From NCBI GenBank assembly GCA_016212665.1, contig JACREZ010000034.1, positions 62,001 to 126,000 of the forward strand: 64,000 nt of DNA, written 5' to 3'. Made by a program: the position numbers and the translations under genes. The DNA comes from Ignavibacteriota bacterium (GTDB lineage Bacteria > Bacteroidota > Ignavibacteria > UBA10030 > SZUA-254). Position 1 is the first letter of the stretch. Every line of letters starts with the position of its first letter. The notes beneath the pieces are model-generated. The model worked only from the letters and a program-made list of their open reading frames with translations. It searched no databases and was not told the origin of the DNA. Positions 1,076 to 55,640 of this stretch are shown here, in pieces.

Positions 1076-4000
1076 ATGAAACGATTGGTTCAATCTACAT
1101 TTATTTTCTTTGTAATTCTTAGTACTCTCGGAGCGTTCGCATTCGGTCAGAAGTTGGACAGAACGACACAGGAGGTAGGCAATCCGAACGAAGTATTTGC
1201 TGCTCCGACGGTTACGAGTTTCTCGCCATCGAGCGGTTCCGGAGGAACACTTGTTACCGTCAACGGAACAAACCTAACAGGCGCAACAGCCATAGCGGTG
1301 AACGGAGTGAGTGTTTCTTCGTTTACGGTCCTTTCTGCAACGCAGATAACGATGACGCTTTCCGATAACAACACGACAGGAAAAGTCTCTGTAACAACTT
1401 CAGGTGGTACAGGATTGAGTAATTCTGATTTTACGGTCTTCCCGAGAATTGATAGTTTTAGTCCGACGAGCGGACCACGCGGTTCAACAGTTATCATCAC
1501 GGGGGGAAATTTCTCCGGTGTAACCTCGGTAAAGTTTAACGGGACGACGGCAACCTTCACAAGAAATTCTGCAACACAAATTACCGCCACTGTTCCAACC
1601 CGTGCTACGAGCGGAAAAGTTACTCTCGCTACTTCAAGTTCCTCCACACAAAGTTCAAGCGCCTTTACCATTCTCTTCCCGCCGAACATTTCCCGGTTCA
1701 GTCCGACACGCGGAGCCGCAGGTGCTTCTGTAACTATCATAGGTTCAGGTTTTGATATTGCCACAGCGGTTTCGTTCAACGGTGCATCGGCATCGTTTAC
1801 GATTATTTCATCAACACAGATTAATGCAACTGTTCCCGCAAACGCGACAAAAGGAAAAATCAGTGTTACAAACGCGGCAGGAACTGATTTGAGCGGGACG
1901 AGTTTTACGGTATTACCAGGCGTCACAAGTTTCTCTCCCACGAGTGGAGTAGCAGGAGATGTCGTAACGATTACGGGAACAGGATTTACAACTGTCCGTT
2001 CGGTAAAGTTCAATGGAATTACAGCGACATTTACAGCAAATTCAGAAAATTCAATTACAGCAGTAGTTCCTTCGCGGGCAACAACCGGAGAAATTACTGT
2101 TACTACGTCAGCAGGTACAGCGACAAGCCCTGAAAACTTCAGCATTTTTCCGAATATTACCTCGTTCACGCCATCAAGCGGACCGGTTGGTACAACGGTG
2201 AATATTACAGGAACGAATTTTACGGGAGCGACTTCGGTAACGTTTAATGGTGTGAGCGCGACGTTTTCAGTTCGGTCATCAACTTCAATTCGTGCTACGG
2301 TTCCTTCGGGTGCTGGTTCGGGTTCGATTCAAGTGACAACTGCCGCGGGAACGGCTGAGAGCGCAACCGATTTTACCGTGACAGGTTCAACGACCGGATT
2401 GGCTATCTCAAGTTTCTCGCCCTCAAGTGGAAATGTAGGGGCAACGGTTGTTATCACCGGAACCGGTTTCAGCGACGTAACGGATGTATTGTTTAACGGT
2501 GTCAGTGCAAGTTTCACCGTCAGTTCATCCACTTCAATCTCTGCCGTCGTTCCGACAGCAGCGAGCATCGGACAGATTTCGGTCAGCACGTCTTCAGATT
2601 TTGCAACAAGTTCGAGCAGTTTCAGTGTGCTTCCTCAGTTGACAAGTTTCACTCCATCAAGCGGTGCTACAGGCTCAAGTGTTGTGATTACGGGTTCGGG
2701 ATTGAGTGGAACAAACTCGGTGAAGTTTAATGGTGTGAGCGCGGGATTCACAATCAATTCGGCAAATCAAGTAACTGCAACGGTTCCATCGAGCGCATCA
2801 ACGGGCAAGATTTCGCTGACAACTCCATCAGGTACGGTGACAAGTTCGACAAACTTCACCGTAACAGGCGCGCCGGTCATCACAAGTTTTTCTCCATCAA
2901 GCAGTACAACGGGCGCAACGATTACAATTCTCGGCGCGAACTTTACCGGAGCGTCGGTACAGTTTAACGGCGTCGCTGCATCGGCAACGGTTGTTTCATC
3001 TTCTCAGATTACCGCCGTCGTTCCCTCCACTGCAACAACCGGCTACATCACGGTGACAACTTCTCTCGGTTCATCGAATAGTTCAACAACGTTCACTGTG
3101 CTTCCTTCGATTACTTCGTTTTCACCAACGAGCGGGACAACGGGAAGTACGGTTGTGATTTCCGGTTCCGGTTTCAGCGGTGTTACGTCTGTTCGGTTTA
3201 ATGATGTCAGCGCATCCTTTACCGTCAATAGTGTGAATCAAATTACAGCAACCGTTCCGAGTTCGGCAACAACGGGTCCGGTTCGGGTTGTAACGACTGC
3301 CGGTTCTGCGCCGAGCAACACGAACTTTACCGTAACATCACCGTTGACGCCGCCGACGGTTTCATCATTTTCACCGACGAGCGGAACGGTCGGTACGACA
3401 ATAACTATCAACGGAACGAATTTCTCTGATGCGAGCGGAGTTCAGTTTAACGGGACGAACGCAACGAGTTTTACAGTAGCGTCATCAACTCAAATTACAG
3501 CAACGGTACCGACGGGCGCTTCAACAGGAAAAATAAGTGTTATCAATCCGTCCGGGACCGGAACAAGTTCTTCGAGCTTCACCGTCACCGCCGGTCCATC
3601 AATTGCAACCTTTACGCCGACGAGCGGTCCGGTCGGAACAGTGGTAAGCATCACCGGGGCAAATCTTAGTTCCGTAACCAATGTGTTGTTTAATGGTGTG
3701 AGTGCAACAACGTTTACCATAATCTCATCAACAACCATAAGCGCAACGGTTCCGGCGGACGGAAGCACGGGAAAAATCACTCTTGTTGCTTCTTCAGGAA
3801 ATGTTGTCAGCACGGGAACGTTCAGCGTAACGCCGCAACTGACAAGTTTCACTCCAACAAGCGGAACGAGCGGGACATCGGTTGTCATCAGTGGAAGCGG
3901 ATTTATCGGAGCGACCTCAGTGAAATTTAATGGAGTAAGTTCAACATTCACTTTGAATTCAGCCACTCAGATAACTGCTGTAGTTCCATCAGGAACAACG

Positions 4001-7000
4001 ACCGGGAAAATTGCAGTAACTACTACTTCCGGTACTGCTACGAGTGCGAGTGACTTTACCATTACTGCACCGCCGACGGTTACCAGTTTCACTCCGAATC
4101 GCGGCGCCACAGGAACGGTTGTTTCTATTTTCGGGTCAAACCTGACGGCGACGAGTGTAACATTCAACGGCGTGAGCGCGACATTTACCAATGTTTCTTC
4201 AACGCAGATTACGGCAACGGTTCCCGGCACAGCGACAACAGGAAAGATTGTTGTAACAACTGCAAGCGGAACAGTGATGACAACCAACAATTTTACCGTA
4301 ACACCAACGTTATCAAGTTTTACCCCGACAAGCGGAACGATTGGTTCATCCATTACAATTACCGGAACAGGATTTAGTAGTGTAACAGCGGTTCGATTCA
4401 ATAACGTTATTGCATCGTACACGGTGAACAGTTCAACTGAAATTACAGCCACGGTTCCAAGCGGCGCAACAACGGGACCTGTGAGCGTTACAACATCGTC
4501 CGGTACGGCGACGGGAGGAACAAACTATACGGTGTTACCAAATATCACCACCTTTGCCCCGACCTCCGGAGTCGTCGGGAACACGGTTTTCATAACGGGG
4601 ACGGGATTCACCAATGTCACTTCTGTATTATTGAATGGTGTAGCAGTTACATACACAGTTCAATCTTCAACATCAATTAGGGCGGTCGTGCCGGTCGGTG
4701 CGACAAGCGGTTCGTTCACGGTGACAACCACAGCCGGAACGACATTCAGTGCAGGCACGTATACAGTGATTCCTCCGATTTCTATCACGAGTTTTACTCC
4801 TGCATGCTCTGAAATTTTAACACAGGTGACAGTGACAGGAACGAGTTTCATCAGTGTCACGGAAGTGTTGATTGACACCTCGTTCTGCTTGTTTACCGTG
4901 AACTCATCAACAGAACTTGTTCTTACTGTTCCGGCAACAGCAACGACAGGGAGAATCAAAGTCATTTCATCCATCGGAACTGCGGAGAGCGCGACGGATT
5001 TTGTACCGGTGAATGTTCCCGACGTAACAAGTTTTTCACCGACGAGCGGACCGGTTGGGACAACGGTGATTCTCACAGGAACAGGATTCTGCACAACAAC
5101 CTCAGTTGATTTTAATGGAGTGACAACTTCGTTCACGATTGATTCTGATGTTCAAATCACAACTGTTGTTCCATACGGTGCGACGACGGGACCAATAACC
5201 GTAGTGAACACAGTCGGAACATTTACGACAGCATCTGATTATACGGTTACACCGGACATTCTCAGTTTCACCCCTGCAAGCGGATATGTCGGAGATAATG
5301 TAACTATCACGGGAACAAATTTCCTGACTGTTGGTACGGTTGAATTTAATGGCGTCTCAGCGACATTTACTGTTGACTCCTATTCACAGATTACTGCAAC
5401 TGTTCCGGCAACGGCTACAACCGGTTTGATTACGGTAACTTCACCCACAGAAGGAACCGATGCAAGTTCAACCGCGTACATTGTTCTTCCGAAGATTGAT
5501 AGTTTCACACCGACGACAGGAATCGTTGGCGATGCAGTAACTATTAATGGTTCGGGATTGAACAACGCAACGTCGGTGACGTTCAACGGGACGAGCGCAG
5601 GATACACAGTTGTTTCAGAATCTCAAGTTGATGCTTTCGTTCCGTTTGGCGCGTTGACCGGTTCGATTGTCATCACGACACCGTACGGAACAGCAACAAG
5701 TTCTTCGTACTTCAATGTCGAGCCGAACATCACCGGATTTACTCCGGTAAATGGTGTAGTCGGTGATAACGTCACCATTTTTGGTTCAGCCTTCATCGGT
5801 ACAACCGATGTTCAGTTCAATGGAACGAGCGCTACATTTACGATTGACTCGTATTCACAAATTACTGCAACGGTTCCGAGCAATGCATCAACCGGTGTGA
5901 TTACGGTGACGACAACTTCCGGAACGGATAATAGCGCGACAAACTTTACCGTGTTACCAAATATTACTTCGTTCACTCCGACAAGCGGTGTGATTGGTTC
6001 ATCGGTGAATATTTCCGGAACGACATTGACAGCAGTAACCGATGTTGACTTCAATGGAACATCGGCAACGTTTACTGTTTTGTCCGATGTTCTTATCAAC
6101 GCAACCGTTCCAAACGGCGCAACAACCGGACCAATTAGCGTTACAAATCCGGACGGAACGGATTATAGCGCAACCGATTTCACGGTATTACCGGATGTTT
6201 CAAGCTTCACTCCGACTGCCGGAATTGTCGGTGACAACATCACCATTAATGGAACCGGGTTTACCGGTGCGACGGATGTTCAGTTCAACGGAGTGAGTTG
6301 CAGTTTCACGGTGAATTCAGATATTGATATTACCGCAACGGTTCCGAATCTGGCAACGACAGGAGTCGTTACTGTGACTACTCCGTCAGGCACCAATTCA
6401 AGCACAAGCAACTTTACTGTTCAGCCGAACATTGACAGCTTTACACCATTGAGCGACATCGTCGGTGCGTCAGTAACGATAACCGGAACAGCATTTACCG
6501 GTGCGACTTCGGTTGCATTCAACGGAGTGAACGCATCGTACACGGTTAATTCGTATTCACAAATTACTGCAACGGTGCCTGCAACTGCAACCACAGGAGC
6601 GATTACAGTTGTGACGCCTTCCGGTACAGCAACGAGTGCGACAAACTTTGCCGTGGAACCGAACATTACAAGTTTCTCTCCGACAAGCGGAGTGATTACC
6701 GATGTTGTAACGATACTCGGAACAAACTTCACCGGCGCAACGGATGTCTCCTTCAACGGAGTCAGCGCGATAACATTTACTGTTGTATCGGCAACACAAA
6801 TTGATGCAACTGTTCCTTCCGGCGCTTCGACGGGTTTGATTAGTGTTACGACACCTGACGGAACGGATTTCAGCGCTACAAACTTCACAGTCGAGCCGGA
6901 TGTAACAAGTTTTACTCCATCAAGTGGTGAAGTAGGTGACCCGATTACTCTCAATGGAACAGGGTTTACAGGTGCAACTTCTGTTCTCTTCAATGGAGTG

Positions 7001-50304: not shown

Positions 50305-50400
50305 GTTTGAGACGAGGCACGATCCTATAGATTCGTTTCGCTGAGATTGTATTATTATATTCTGGCAAAATATTTCAACGAAGTGAATCGTAATAACCCA

Positions 50401-52227
50401 ATGCAGAAATCAAAGCAAGAAGAAAAACCGCCCTACGTAATAATTCTTCTCCTGATAATTTTTACCGTTATTGCTTTTGCAGATGTTTTTACTTCAGGGT
50501 TCATTAATTATGATGACCCCGATTATGTAACAGAAAATATTCATGTTCGGGAAGGCATTACTCCGCAAACAATCAAATGGGCATTTACAACAACTCTCCA
50601 GGCAAACTGGCATCCCCTGACATGGCTCTCGCTTGCGTTTGATTACTCGTTGTTTGGTCTCAATGCGACATCCTTTCATGCGATGAATTTTCTCTTTCAC
50701 CTTCTGAGTAGTATTTTCCTGTTTTTCATTTTTGAACGGATGACGCACTCACGATGGCAGAGTGCATTTGTCGCTTTTGTCTTTGCGCTTCATCCGCTTC
50801 ATGTCGAGTCTGTTGCCTGGATTTCTGAACGGAAAGATGTTCTTTCCGGTTTTTTCGGGATACTCACAATCGGGGCATACATTGTTTTTCGGCAATCATC
50901 AAACAAGAAATATTATTTCCTGATGCTTGCTTTCTTCATTCTTGGATTGATGGCAAAACCGATGTTGGTAACTCTTCCCTTTGTTCTTCTTCTTCTTGAT
51001 TATTGGCCCCTCAACCGGTTCGCTATCGGAACGTCAAAGACACATCGGAAACCCAACAGCAGACAACTGTTTCAACAAAGCGTGATAGAAAAAATTCCGT
51101 TGTTTCTTTTCTCTGCCGCTTCAAGTATTGTAACATTCCTCGTTCAACAGCAAGGCAAAGCAATGCTCTTCGGGGAGACGTTGCCATTTCAAAAACGTAT
51201 CGTCAATGCCATCGTTTCATATGCTCAATATGTTGGAAAAGCAATTTATCCTACAAACCTTTCCATATTTTACCCTCATCAGGGAAAGACATTATCATCT
51301 ATTGAAGTTGGTATTGCGATAGTAGTTCTTGCACTGATAACATACTTTGCCTGGAAACAAAAAGTTCAACGCCCCTATCTTCTCATCGGATGGCTCTGGT
51401 TTCTCGGAACATTAGTTCCGGTGATAGGCATTGTTCAGATAGGTATGCAGGGGTTGGCGGACAGATACATGTATTTACCGATTATCGGGCTTGCAATCAT
51501 GGTAGCATGGGGCGTTCCCTCTTTTTTGAAAACGTGGCGCAATTCCCGACAGTTTATTATTGCCTCATTTGCCATCGTCGTTCTTTGTATGATAGTAGGA
51601 ACCCGTTTGTATGCAAGTAAATGGAAAGATACAACATCATTGTTTAGCCATGCTCTTTCCGTTACTTCGAATAATTATATTGCCCATGATTGTCTCGGCA
51701 CAGAGTTAGCTGATTCGGGAAAACATACAGAAGCGGCCCGGCATTTACGAGAAGCGGTTCGAATCATGCCGACCTATACATATTCCAAATCGAAACTCGG
51801 TGCCATTCTTCTTTCACAAGGAAATATTGATGAAGCCATTTCTTACTTCCTTCTTTGTCTCCGTGATATGCCCGATAACGTTTCAACAAACAATAATTTG
51901 GGCGTAGCGTTTGCCGCGAAAGGTCAGTTAGAAAAAGCTGCCACGTACTGGAATCGCGCAATAGAAATCGACCCGGAAAACGCCGATGCTCACTCTAACC
52001 TTGCTCGTCTATATTCCATTCAAGGAAAAACAGAGAAAGCAATTCAGGCATTTGAGACTGTATTGCGGCTTGATGCGAACCATGTTCAGGCGCATTACAA
52101 TTATGGAAATCTGCTTGCAACAACCGGGAAAACACAAGATGCAAAGTTTCATTATTCTGAGGCTCTCCGAATTACTCCCGGCTTTCAAGATGCGCGAACT
52201 GCTTTAAGAAAACTTGAAGACAAGTAA
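50401..52227 (+). CDS. TMTC-like membrane glycosyltransferase with C-terminal TPRs (copy 1)
   Basis: This 608-residue protein has about ten membrane helices and a cluster FINYDDPDYV near residue 38, the acidic motif of GT-C O-mannosyltransferase-like proteins. HPLHVESVAWISERKDVL is the hallmark of the TMTC-like family. The C-terminal third (about 425-600) has TPR units (AHDCLGTELADSGKHTEAARHLREA, NNLGVAFAAKGQLEKAATYW and others). Eukaryotic TMTC proteins add mannose to cadherins; the bacterial role is likely a protein or lipid glycosyltransferase. The start at 50401 avoids an upstream in-frame ATG (50347). A paralogue follows in tandem. Confidence 0.88.
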   Translation: MQKSKQEEKPPYVIILLLIIFTVIAFADVFTSGFINYDDPDYVTENIHVREGITPQTIKWAFTTTLQANWHPLTWLSLAFDYSLFGLNATSFHAMNFLFHLLSSIFLFFIFERMTHSRWQSAFVAFVFALHPLHVESVAWISERKDVLSGFFGILTIGAYIVFRQSSNKKYYFLMLAFFILGLMAKPMLVTLPFVLLLLDYWPLNRFAIGTSKTHRKPNSRQLFQQSVIEKIPLFLFSAASSIVTFLVQQQGKAMLFGETLPFQKRIVNAIVSYAQYVGKAIYPTNLSIFYPHQGKTLSSIEVGIAIVVLALITYFAWKQKVQRPYLLIGWLWFLGTLVPVIGIVQIGMQGLADRYMYLPIIGLAIMVAWGVPSFLKTWRNSRQFIIASFAIVVLCMIVGTRLYASKWKDTTSLFSHALSVTSNNYIAHDCLGTELADSGKHTEAARHLREAVRIMPTYTYSKSKLGAILLSQGNIDEAISYFLLCLRDMPDNVSTNNNLGVAFAAKGQLEKAATYWNRAIEIDPENADAHSNLARLYSIQGKTEKAIQAFETVLRLDANHVQAHYNYGNLLATTGKTQDAKFHYSEALRITPGFQDARTALRKLEDK

Positions 52228-52266
52228 CTTATTCATGTGTGAATCATTATCCGGAACAAGTCAGCG

Positions 52267-54102
52267 ATGCAAACAAAAAAACAACAACAAGAACACAAAT
52301 CTCAATATGTTATCATTCTTCTTCTTTCTGTTGCAACCGTTATTGCGTTCGCAGGAGTAGTAGAATCCGGATTCACCAACATTGATGACAACGGCTATGT
52401 TACACAAAATGCACAGGTGAAATCGGGGATTTCTTGGCAGACCGTTGTCTGGTCGTTCTCGACGACAAAACACGCGAACTGGCATCCCCTGACATGGCTT
52501 TCGCTTGCTCTTGACAAATCGTTGTTTGGTCTTGATGCAAGATATTTTCATGCAACCAATCTTTTCCTCCATCTTCTCAGCAGCATTCTCTTGTTTCTTG
52601 TGTTGGAAAGAATGACCCGCTCTCGCTGGCAAAGCGCGTTTGTCGCGTTTGTCTTTGCTCTTCATCCGCTTCATGTCGAATCTGTCGCATGGATTTCCGA
52701 ACGGAAAGATGTTCTCGCCGGATTCTTTTGGATGCTGACGATGGGTGCGTACAGTTTCTATCATCAGTCATCTCAGAAGAAATATTATTACATCACTCTG
52801 ATATTCTTTATGCTGGGATTAATGGCAAAACCGATGTTGGTAACGCTTCCATTTGTTCTCCTTCTTTTAGATTATTGGCCACTGAATAGAATTTCTTTGA
52901 GCAATGTTTCTACTGGTCGTGAGAAAAAGCAACCCATCATACCATTGAAACAGAGTCTACTGGAAAAATTACCATTCATTATTCTTGCCATCGCATCAAG
53001 CATCATAACCTTTATTGCCCAACGACAAGGCGAAGCGATGAACCTGGGAGATGCCTTACCTTTTCATGAACGCCTTATCAACGCCATCATTTCGTATGCG
53101 CAATACATTGGAAAAACGTTTGTACCGACCAATCTTGCAGTGTTTTATCCGCATCCGGGGAGTGACTTTTCGCCGGGTATGCTGGCTGGTGCAACGATAC
53201 TTCTTTCCCTCATTACCATTGTTGTGTGGAAACAAAAAACGCAACGTCCATTTCTTGCTTTCGGATGGCTTTGGTTTCTTGGAACATTAATTCCCATGCT
53301 CGGTATCGTGCAGGTTGGAATGCAGGGCATGGCAGACCGTTATATGTATGTGCCAATAATCGGGCTTGCGGTGATGTTGGCGTGGGGAGTTCCATCGTTG
53401 ATGAATCAATGGAAGAATCATCGTACGATTCTTCTCGTTACGTTTGTGTTCGTAACATTGAGTATGATGTTTGCGACGCGGACTCAGGTATCATATTGGA
53501 AAAACAGCAAGACAATTCTTGAACATACGCTCAGTGTTACAACAGATAACTATTTTGCACATTACTGTCTCGGTCTTGATTTTGCGGATTCAGGAAAAAC
53601 CGATGAGGCAATCCTGCACTTCCGTGAAGCGCTTCGTATCAACCCGTCGTATCCACTGACCCACAATAATTTGGGAGCGGCGCTTTCACGCAAGGGTAAT
53701 TTCGATGAAGCGATTCCTCTTTTCAGGGAAAGCATTCGTCTAATGCCTTCTCATCCGCCAACATACAATAATTTCGGAGTGACACTTGCACAGCAAGGTA
53801 AACTCGATGAGGCGGAAACACAATGGCTTCGCGCAATTGAGTTAGACCCGGAGTTTGCCGATGCTCATGCAAATCTCGGTCGTCTGTTTTTTCTTCAGGA
53901 AAAGACTGAGGAAGCGATTCAACACTTCGAAACCGCGATACGGCTTGATGCGAACCATGTCAACGCCCATTTCAATTACGGTAACGTACTTGCGAAAGCG
54001 GGAAAGGTTGAAGAAGCGAAGTTTCATTATTCAGAAGCGCTACGGGTTGCGCCGGGGTTTCAGGCGGCTCGAACTGCCTTACGTCAACTTGGTGGAAGGT
54101 AA
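52267..54102 (+). CDS. TMTC-like membrane glycosyltransferase with C-terminal TPRs (copy 2)
   Basis: This 611-residue protein is a tandem paralogue of the previous gene: the same acidic motif (TNIDDNGYV), an identical HPLHVESVAWISERKDVL stretch, and the same TPR tail (LDANHVNAHFNYGNVLAKAGKVEEAKFHYSEAL). The gap is 39 bases. Differences concentrate in the outer loops and TPRs, as expected of duplicates with different partners or acceptors. Confidence 0.88.
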   Translation: MQTKKQQQEHKSQYVIILLLSVATVIAFAGVVESGFTNIDDNGYVTQNAQVKSGISWQTVVWSFSTTKHANWHPLTWLSLALDKSLFGLDARYFHATNLFLHLLSSILLFLVLERMTRSRWQSAFVAFVFALHPLHVESVAWISERKDVLAGFFWMLTMGAYSFYHQSSQKKYYYITLIFFMLGLMAKPMLVTLPFVLLLLDYWPLNRISLSNVSTGREKKQPIIPLKQSLLEKLPFIILAIASSIITFIAQRQGEAMNLGDALPFHERLINAIISYAQYIGKTFVPTNLAVFYPHPGSDFSPGMLAGATILLSLITIVVWKQKTQRPFLAFGWLWFLGTLIPMLGIVQVGMQGMADRYMYVPIIGLAVMLAWGVPSLMNQWKNHRTILLVTFVFVTLSMMFATRTQVSYWKNSKTILEHTLSVTTDNYFAHYCLGLDFADSGKTDEAILHFREALRINPSYPLTHNNLGAALSRKGNFDEAIPLFRESIRLMPSHPPTYNNFGVTLAQQGKLDEAETQWLRAIELDPEFADAHANLGRLFFLQEKTEEAIQHFETAIRLDANHVNAHFNYGNVLAKAGKVEEAKFHYSEALRVAPGFQAARTALRQLGGR

Positions 54103-54173
54103 GTGAGCCCGGCTCTTTCATCGCAATTCGGAGAAGTCGGTGTAAAAATGGAAATCGAAACAACAGCCATATT

Positions 54174-54311
54174 GCAGAGGATGGGGCTGTCTCACAAGTT
54201 AGATTTCACTGTAGGCGCAACCTTCATGGTTGCGTTTCCACATCAAAAACGCAGACATAAAGTCTGCGGCTACTCTTTATTTAGATTTTTGAGACAGCCC
54301 CATTTCTCTGC
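54174..54311. mobile_element. MITE-like element with 14-20 base terminal inverted repeats
   Basis: ATGGGGCTGTCTCA (54181-54194) and TGAGACAGCCCCAT (54290-54303) are perfect 14-base inverted repeats. Outside them GCAGAG (54174-54179) and CTCTGC (54306-54311) also pair. Inside are two perfect hairpins, CGCAACC/GGTTGCG (near 54215-54233) and GCAGAC/GTCTGC (near 54251-54267), making a three-way junction. No ORF. It sits between the TMTC-like gene and the convergent CreD-like gene and may double as a terminator. Confidence 0.7.
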
Positions 54312-54320
54312 TGACTTTTG

Positions 54321-55640
54321 TTAAGCACCCGATGACGGGTCACTTGTCTTTAGTGAAAACCAATCAATTTTTCTCGTCAGGTACATGACGAACGAGAGGA
54401 TGAGTAAGAGCCCCAAACTTCCTAACAACAAGGCGTAGTCCTGAAGTTGTAATGTAACATAGAGAAAACTGTACAGCAACACGAGGACACTAAGAATAAT
54501 CATCATGATTCTCCCGCTCTGAGTTATCCATTTTGTGTACACCGTAATCAACCCAATGATACTGATGCTGGAAATTAAATACGCAACATTGAAGGTAACA
54601 TGTTCAGACAGTGAAAGAAGAAGCGCGTAAAAAAGAACCAACGCGAACCCTATCAATCCATATTGGACTGGATGAAGAAGTATCTTCCCAAGTACTTCTG
54701 TCAGAAAGTATGCGAGGAATGTTAACGCAATAAACATGATTGCATATTTTACCGTCCGCATCGTTTTCTGGTATTCATCAACAGGAACGAGTAACCGAAC
54801 TCCAAAAGAATTTTCTTCGATGTTATTGTCCACATCGGTAAGGTTATCCGGGATGTTTCTGTTTAATTCCAGTACTCTCCATGTTGCCTCGAATCCGTTC
54901 GATGTAATTGTTCTTGATTCCGGCAGAAAGCTTCCAAGAAAACTTGGATTGCTCCATGGTGATGAAACCATCACCGATGTTTCTTTTCCAACAGGAACAA
55001 CACGGAAATCCGTCGCTCCGTTGAGATTCAACTGAAGAGAAAACGAATATCGTTCTTTTTCCGGTGTGATTGCAGGGAAATATCTCACGCCGGAGTGAAT
55101 AGCGGAGGGAATATCAGTGCCTGCTTTTGGAGAATATGGAACTTGTTCCCACATCAGTAAAGCGGAATCTTTTATTCCTTTGAGGTCGGAAATTCCCAGC
55201 GTGACAGACGCTTCATCCCACAACAAATTTTCGATTGGCTTTTTTTGTTCTTGAAGAGTGAGGAGTGAAAAATCGCCGGAAAGATTCACGGTTGAATTGT
55301 AGAGGATCACTTCATAAATTCCACGGTATCTCACGTTCGGGTCAAGGGATGAGTTGATAGATACATGTTCCGGAAGAATTTGAAGGTACTCTTTTGAGTA
55401 TTGGATGTCTCCATCCTTCCCGGAATTCTTTTTCATGTATGGAACTGTTAGAATCGGTCCTGTCAACAATTGACTTCCTCCCCAGCCCTGACTTACGTCT
55501 TTGATTGCTTCATCGCGTCGTTCTTGTCGTTCGATAATTAACGACTCTATCATTACCGTTGGAGGGAGTAATACTAAGGTCAGTACGCCAACAAGAACCA
55601 TTCGTAGCAGAACCGAGTTTTTTAATCTGCTCTCGTTCAT
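54321..55640 (-). CDS. creD: CreD-like inner membrane protein
   Basis: This 439-residue protein has an N-terminal helix (MVLVGVLTLVLLPPTVMIE), a long periplasmic region with YRGIYEVILYNSTVNLSG and RYFPAITPEKERYSFSLQLNLNG-type motifs, and about six C-terminal membrane helices starting LLVPVDEYQKTMRTVKYAIMFIALTFLAYFLTEV. This is the CreD/inner-membrane protein family, in Escherichia coli controlled by CreBC. No CreBC here, so its role is unclear. It is monocistronic. Confidence 0.88.
   Translation of the reverse strand: MNESRLKNSVLLRMVLVGVLTLVLLPPTVMIESLIIERQERRDEAIKDVSQGWGGSQLLTGPILTVPYMKKNSGKDGDIQYSKEYLQILPEHVSINSSLDPNVRYRGIYEVILYNSTVNLSGDFSLLTLQEQKKPIENLLWDEASVTLGISDLKGIKDSALLMWEQVPYSPKAGTDIPSAIHSGVRYFPAITPEKERYSFSLQLNLNGATDFRVVPVGKETSVMVSSPWSNPSFLGSFLPESRTITSNGFEATWRVLELNRNIPDNLTDVDNNIEENSFGVRLLVPVDEYQKTMRTVKYAIMFIALTFLAYFLTEVLGKILLHPVQYGLIGFALVLFYALLLSLSEHVTFNVAYLISSISIIGLITVYTKWITQSGRIMMIILSVLVLLYSFLYVTLQLQDYALLLGSLGLLLILSFVMYLTRKIDWFSLKTSDPSSGA

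Follow-up and report, generated by a model that had tools for sequence, protein, structure and literature searches.

REPs are among the commonest repeats of bacterial genomes, and the manner of their spread is debated; the REP doublet is regarded as what RAYT (Y1) transposases mobilise. In Anabaena variabilis, Thermomicrobium roseum and Halothiobacillus neapolitanus REP dimers have been described inside longer palindromes, and the same 2013 survey records no dedicated transposase for the CGTC-type REPs (PMC3733652). In the IS1182 family of insertion sequences, IS1272 is described as moving by inverted-repeat-replacing transposition (PMC5678879), as is TnSha1, a member of the same family whose targets include terminators (PMC4923244), and IS1182-family MITEs of 160 and 169 bp, with ISMac2 as their partner, are listed for Methanosarcina acetivorans (PMC3852290).

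The element described here comes from an Ignavibacteriota bacterium and was found in a window of 64,000 nucleotides, the whole stretch of DNA analysed, to which the coordinates of the element and its neighbours refer. It resembles each of these systems in part. As with IS1272 and TnSha1, it appears to belong to the IS1182 family, to delete its target hairpin wholly or partly, to make no target duplication and to use terminators as targets; those two are autonomous insertion sequences or composite elements of staphylococci, whereas this is a 119-bp MITE without a transposase, with other ends, a REP cargo and a home in another lineage (PMC5678879, PMC4923244). Its core resembles the REPINs and GTAG-type REP dimers, which are inverted, GTAG-tagged hairpins with GTAG outermost and whose REPs flank RAYT genes, but the doublet here is enclosed by IS ends and multiplies together with them, and its RAYT was detected solely in a different genus of the same family (PMC3116915, PMC3733652). 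Flanking palindromic arms are shared with the palindrome-enclosed dimers of A. variabilis, T. roseum and H. neapolitanus, although the relevant passages report those arms as target palindromes and draw no tie to an IS, whereas the MITE arms are IS1182-type ends (PMC3733652). The M. acetivorans MITEs are likewise assigned to an IS1182-family partner; the available part of that paper mentions neither hairpin replacement nor REP cargo, and lists one of them with a 4-bp repeat (PMC3852290). Each half of the element thus has precedents, in IS1182 MITEs, in hairpin replacement and in REP dimers within palindromes, and it is their recurrent coupling that looks new, with REP hairpins acting as targets as well as cargo: a literature search, covering few subscription journals, found no description of a chimera of IS1182 shell and REP cargo, and found the end sequence in three apparently unrelated papers.

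We consider it very probable (roughly 85%), from comparison of sequences, that an IS1182-family DDE transposase moves the MITE in trans, and that the MITE replaces hairpins and carries a REP doublet. What the comparisons themselves show is the sharing of ends with an IS1182-family IS, the multi-copy spread, the exchange of hairpin for MITE at orthologous sites, the REP-doublet anatomy and the RAYT link in a related genus.

Anatomy of the element

The MITE spans positions 54183..54301, boundaries set by comparing the genome's 12 class-a copies with both ends, which diverge everywhere beyond their GGGG...CCCC ends. The left terminal inverted repeat, GGGGCTGTCTCACAAG (54183..54198, plus strand), shares 12 identical nucleotides with an IS end found at a contig end of the same genome and is alike at 15 of 16 positions; the right one, GGGGCTGTCTCAAAAA read inward (54286..54301, minus strand), complements the left end perfectly over 12 nt. 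The ends are a perfect 12-nt GGGGCTGTCTCA, or 14 nt with the flanking AT, in arms of 16 nt. The original prediction had recognised perfect 14-bp ends and two perfect inner hairpins, and all of these are present where it placed them, the ends reading ATGGGGCTGTCTCA and TGAGACAGCCCCAT. The hairpins form a REPIN-like REP doublet, GTAG...CTAC, of 63 bp (54211..54273): hairpin 1, CGCAACC-TTCAT-GGTTGCG (54216..54234, plus strand), and hairpin 2, CGCAGAC-TTTAT-GTCTGCG as read on the minus strand (54250..54268), each of seven pairs, are inverted with GTAG at each outer foot, the arrangement of a REPIN. The six further pairs that had been added outside the ends do form, between GCAGAG (54174-54179) and CTCTGC (54306-54311), but lie beyond the mobile unit of 54183-54301.

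The element contains no ORF of 80 aa or more and, as predicted, sits between convergent genes for a TPR protein (52267-54102, plus strand) and CreD (54321-55640, minus strand). The former ends a tandem pair of paralogous membrane proteins of 626 and 611 aa with C-terminal TPR repeats (50347-54102). A supposed GC-richness relative to the neighbours is not clear, the element having 45.4% GC against 48.0% and 40.3% in the 300 bp to its left and right and 44.5% in the window. The fold is strong, with none of 200 shuffles equally good either as RNA (z = -9.1) or as DNA (z = -9.4); the three-way junction proposed for it is the RNA minimum and the DNA centroid, but at minimum energy the DNA forms one long imperfect hairpin. 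Such a fold, a position between convergent genes and the terminator-like score of hairpin 2 might suit a structured RNA or regulatory three-way junction whose own role at these two genes has kept it conserved. We regard this as extremely improbable, given that many copies are dispersed at unrelated sites, that an Rfam search of the window gave no match and that an unrelated hairpin takes the place of the element at the orthologous site of a sister species.

Copies in the genome and a probable IS1182-family partner

The genome of the window (G000; 3.9 Mb in 45 contigs) holds 36 MITE matches, a count that takes in the window element and matches to its palindromes in reverse. Within the loci retrieved, paired ends delimit 22 two-ended shells of 102-141 bp (23 rows in the pairing table, in which one nested pair is counted twice), and the end word, with up to one mismatch, occurs 51 times against 9 for a reversed control pattern. 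These shells share the GGGGCTGTCTCA ends but enclose four unrelated interiors, whose classes were assigned by reading the sequences, automatic labelling having grouped class d with class b. Class a, that of the window element, accounts for 12 of the 22, class b (GTCATTCCTGCGAAAGCAGGAATCC...) for five, class c (GTAGGACAGGC...GTCTGTCCTAC) for four and class d (GTAGAGTCC...GGACTCTAC) for one. The same end word also makes up cargo-free palindromes of about 32 bp at C2:236 and C37:42051 (L068, L075), one of which precedes a terminator-like T-run.

The original prediction had read the element as MITE-like, likened its ends to those of insertion sequences and proposed a search for copies and for a full IS with the same ends. 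In its 119-bp length, lack of a transposase, terminal inverted repeats and 22 two-ended copies the element is a MITE, and an IS with its ends exists, so that the refuting case, a single copy with no such IS, fails. The viral contig IMGVR_UViG_3300022181_000116 carries a complete IS of 1.9 kb bounded on either side by GGGGCTGTCTCAAAA (bases 2822-4702, covered by loci L280 and L252, which abut at contig bases 2926/2927), and the open frame of 527 aa in this IS scores 388.8 bits to NF033551, the IS1182-family model with a cut-off of 270. Partial IS1182 copies with ends of similar style are found in Bacillus methanolicus (GGGGCTGTCC, L237) and Paenibacillus lautus (GGGGGTGTCCCAAAAG, L247).

Within G000, 46 of the 90 contig ends were viewed (43 starts and the ends of C4, C8 and C12), and in five of them the contig stops 139-141 nt into a multi-copy element whose end is of the MITE type, three reading GGGGCTGTCTCAAAAGGGCAGCCCC and then MPTAIFKPYSPNQLQLLP and the other two GGGGTTGTCTCAAAAGGACAGCCTC. 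We infer that they represent the two ends, left and right, of a single repeated IS that could not be crossed in assembly. The MITE ends are thus common to the complete IS1182-family IS of the viral contig and to a partial IS in G000. No complete copy with these ends is readable in G000 or in 14 relatives; because of this, the case for the partner in G000 is built on the five contig-end fragments and on 18 aa of an N-terminus. A search of the 14 relatives gave no match to the IS ends, and four relatives have IS1182-like matches without such ends; the 11 PF05598 matches in 7 of 16 shell-bearing genomes include none with both GGGGCTGTCTCA ends. Plasmid sequences queried with the IS peptide and the MITE gave no match, nor did viral contigs searched for the two-ended MITE pattern. 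The sole PF05598 match in G000 was ruled out as the partner: this locus (L067, C34:25415) holds an element of IS5 type (371 bits to NF033578) whose ends resemble AGGGTTCACTGAAAAAGT and which has no relation to the MITE.

Insertion at hairpins

In a sister species (G002) whose CreD is 88% identical, the gap beside creD (L085) holds a perfect hairpin, CAGAGAAAGAGAGTCACTG-TATT-CAGTGACTCTCTTTCTCTG as read on the CreD strand. The window keeps the feet of this hairpin, CAGAG and TTTCTCTG, and the MITE occupies the place of its 26-nt top: the left foot, GCAGAGGAT (54174..54182), aligns to CACAGAGAAA, and the right foot, ATTTCTCTGC (54302..54311), to TTTCTCTGT on the opposite side of the G002 hairpin. 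The six outer pairs are thus a leftover hairpin foot, since the MITE replaced the top of the hairpin seen in G002. A ridA gene (PF01042, 98.6 bits) is convergent to creD in G002 and has its stop codon within the hairpin (L085, 2526-2930); beside the MITE, at about 54145-54182 of the window, there is a possible remnant of a ridA C-terminus, MEIETTAIL, with a weak protein match (E 0.019 in a single comparison).

The flanks of 20 more copies were searched in G002, which is 81% complete, and in G001, a second species of the genus. Both flanks fall at one place in G002 for eight copies, the window's included, the other 13 having one flank there or none that was followed. The orthologous site is a hairpin for six of the eight (the window, L003, L005, L010, L013 and L077), as in CTTG-GGGCTGAAATGAGTTTCTGCCC-CAAG for L003 and AAGTCGGTT..AACCGACTT followed by a T-run for L013; for L005 and L010 the G002 alignment ends 3-31 nt before the junction on one or both sides. 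The site of L008 is occupied by a long inverted repeat that has CCCACAACT...AGTTGTGGG as its ends (L303, about 1613-1800) and may belong to a different MITE family or be the replaced target itself, and the site of L020 is unclear. Five of the G002 hairpins were scored, L005 being left out, and rank among the top 0-2.2% of all 45-nt windows in their own loci. No target-site duplication is visible by eye at the six hairpin sites. Nested events in G000 follow the same pattern, with class b and class c shells lying inside class-a copies where the REP hairpin between GTAG and TTCC has been replaced. Taken at the level of sequence, these comparisons indicate that the MITE inserts by replacing hairpins, in an inverted-repeat replacement of the IS1272 type.

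The surroundings of copies at large were examined for the 22 shells of G000 and for the distant copies, of which 79 of 80 enter the junction counts, one at a contig start being omitted. A T-tract after the element or an A-tract before it accompanies 7 of the 22 (background 3.4%) and 36 of the 79 (background 4.5%). By a crude ORF caller, the neighbours are convergent for 3, tandem for 16 and divergent for none of the G000 shells, with 3 at edges, and convergent for 25, tandem for 28 and divergent for 4 of the distant shells, with 23 at edges. GTAG or CTAC stands at the junction of 3 of the 22 copies (0.12 expected) and 5 of the 79 (0.25 expected), an excess that points to REP hairpins as recurrent targets. 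Complementarity of the flanks was considered as a general mark of leftover stems and rejected, because the test on the 22 own copies was not significant (282 of 2000 permutations); among the 79 distant copies the mean was raised (0 of 2000) and the count of feet of at least four pairs was not (232 of 2000).

REP doublets within and outside the shells

Thirty-nine class-a cores from nine genomes, one orientation chosen per core and all rows drawn from fetched loci, could be aligned. Their two hairpins are 97.4% paired, with four pairs changed on both sides (three in hairpin 1, one in hairpin 2), and covariation is 0.101 against 0.041 in shuffles, none of 500 being as high. In G005, of a related genus in the same family, class-a REPs stand on both sides of a RAYT-like gene of 164 aa (L101; PF01797, 32.9 bits), and at the seven Y1-transposase loci of G000 no REPs of classes a-d were found. 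The interiors of classes a, c and d in G000 are whole GTAG...CTAC doublets between the arms. In G001 the version is compact, with GTAG about 2-4 nt beyond the end, so that the same doublet occurs with different arms. The class-a doublet also lies between other ends at L093, L103 and L107 and, within G000, at L014 and L022 (e.g. GGGGTTGTCCAAAAGTC), which hints at shells of other IS subgroups, and the core occurs without visible ends at L090, L092, L095, L102 and L104. A reading of core-only matches in other genera as bare REP doublets was withdrawn, as several lie between other related-looking ends.

With a core that is a RAYT-linked REP doublet, and with Y1 transposases flanked by terminal inverted repeats described in one survey (PMC3733652), the whole element could be taken for the work of a RAYT: a Y1 transposase would have recruited the outer repeats into one large REP-type unit, and a DDE transposase would have no role. 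We find this very unlikely: the ends match those of an IS1182-family IS, interiors without REPs share the same ends and the hairpin at the target disappears, as it does with IS1272.

One exact pattern, both perfect ends GGGGYTGTCYCA, gave at least 80 loci in named genomes, a lower bound, with shells in Clostridia, Bacteroidota, Chloroflexi, Chitinispirillales, Ignavibacteriae, Bacillus, Cohnella and others. Different REP doublets stand between these ends in Clostridia, Chloroflexi and Bacteroidota, and GTCAT or CGTC-like doublets, with tags seen by eye, are present in shells of Chitinispirillales, Tannerella and Pedobacter. Y1-transposase genes occur in 17 of 22 shell-bearing genomes; by eye, 3 of the 20 Y1 loci viewed are flanked by REPs resembling the local shell cargo (L332 in RUG11088, L331 in RUG11878 and L330 in a Chloroflexi MAG). 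REP-like matches outside shells were found in 6 of 12 genomes, within the stretches examined. In a Chloroflexi MAG (L132, 5140-5808) about 30 bp separate a shell from a RAYT gene, and REPs like the cargo of that shell are next to it; in RUG11088 (L119, 6998-7132) a REP that is also shell cargo there forms a short tandem array.

A further alternative is an ordinary IS-deletion MITE with incidental interior hairpins, between whose ends REPs, as frequent targets, were caught by chance with no functional coupling. The recurrent use of REP hairpins as targets would allow for this, plain IS-end deletion shells without REPs do exist elsewhere (L124, L173, L185 and L191, the last with a tagged hairpin that is probably due to chance), and when 85 interiors, including five G000 representatives, are grouped into 33 families, 25 have no GTAG/CTAC-tagged hairpin. 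The tagged hairpins in the other eight families nevertheless compare with a mean of 0.2 in shuffles, and the whole doublets fitted between the arms in classes a, c and d also speak against capture by chance, which we think unlikely.

Discussion

In the mechanism that we favour, an IS1182-family DDE transposase would act in trans on the non-autonomous MITEs, directing them to hairpin-forming inverted repeats that would be mostly gene-end terminators and sometimes REP hairpins. The MITE would remove the top of the hairpin, or the whole of it, and take its place without target duplication, and the leftover T-tract of the target together with the end stem of the MITE may keep termination working. 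The REP doublet could have entered the shell by insertion of a RAYT unit into a short palindrome or by internal replacement; a RAYT might insert a doublet into the loop of a cargo-free palindrome, or a shell might form around a doublet already in place.

We put forward more tentatively, as a possibility that falls somewhat short of an even chance, that a recurrent coupling joins two unrelated transposition systems in different phyla: shells of IS1182 type would repeatedly take up the REP doublets of their host lineage and use REP and terminator hairpins as landing sites, so that DDE transposases, and not RAYTs, would in part spread REP families, those of the CGTC type included. Shells that replace hairpins and carry REP doublets would then represent a concrete second route for the spread of REPs. 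For the host, a transposon that swaps one gene-end hairpin for another and keeps the T-tract may explain why such insertions are tolerated.
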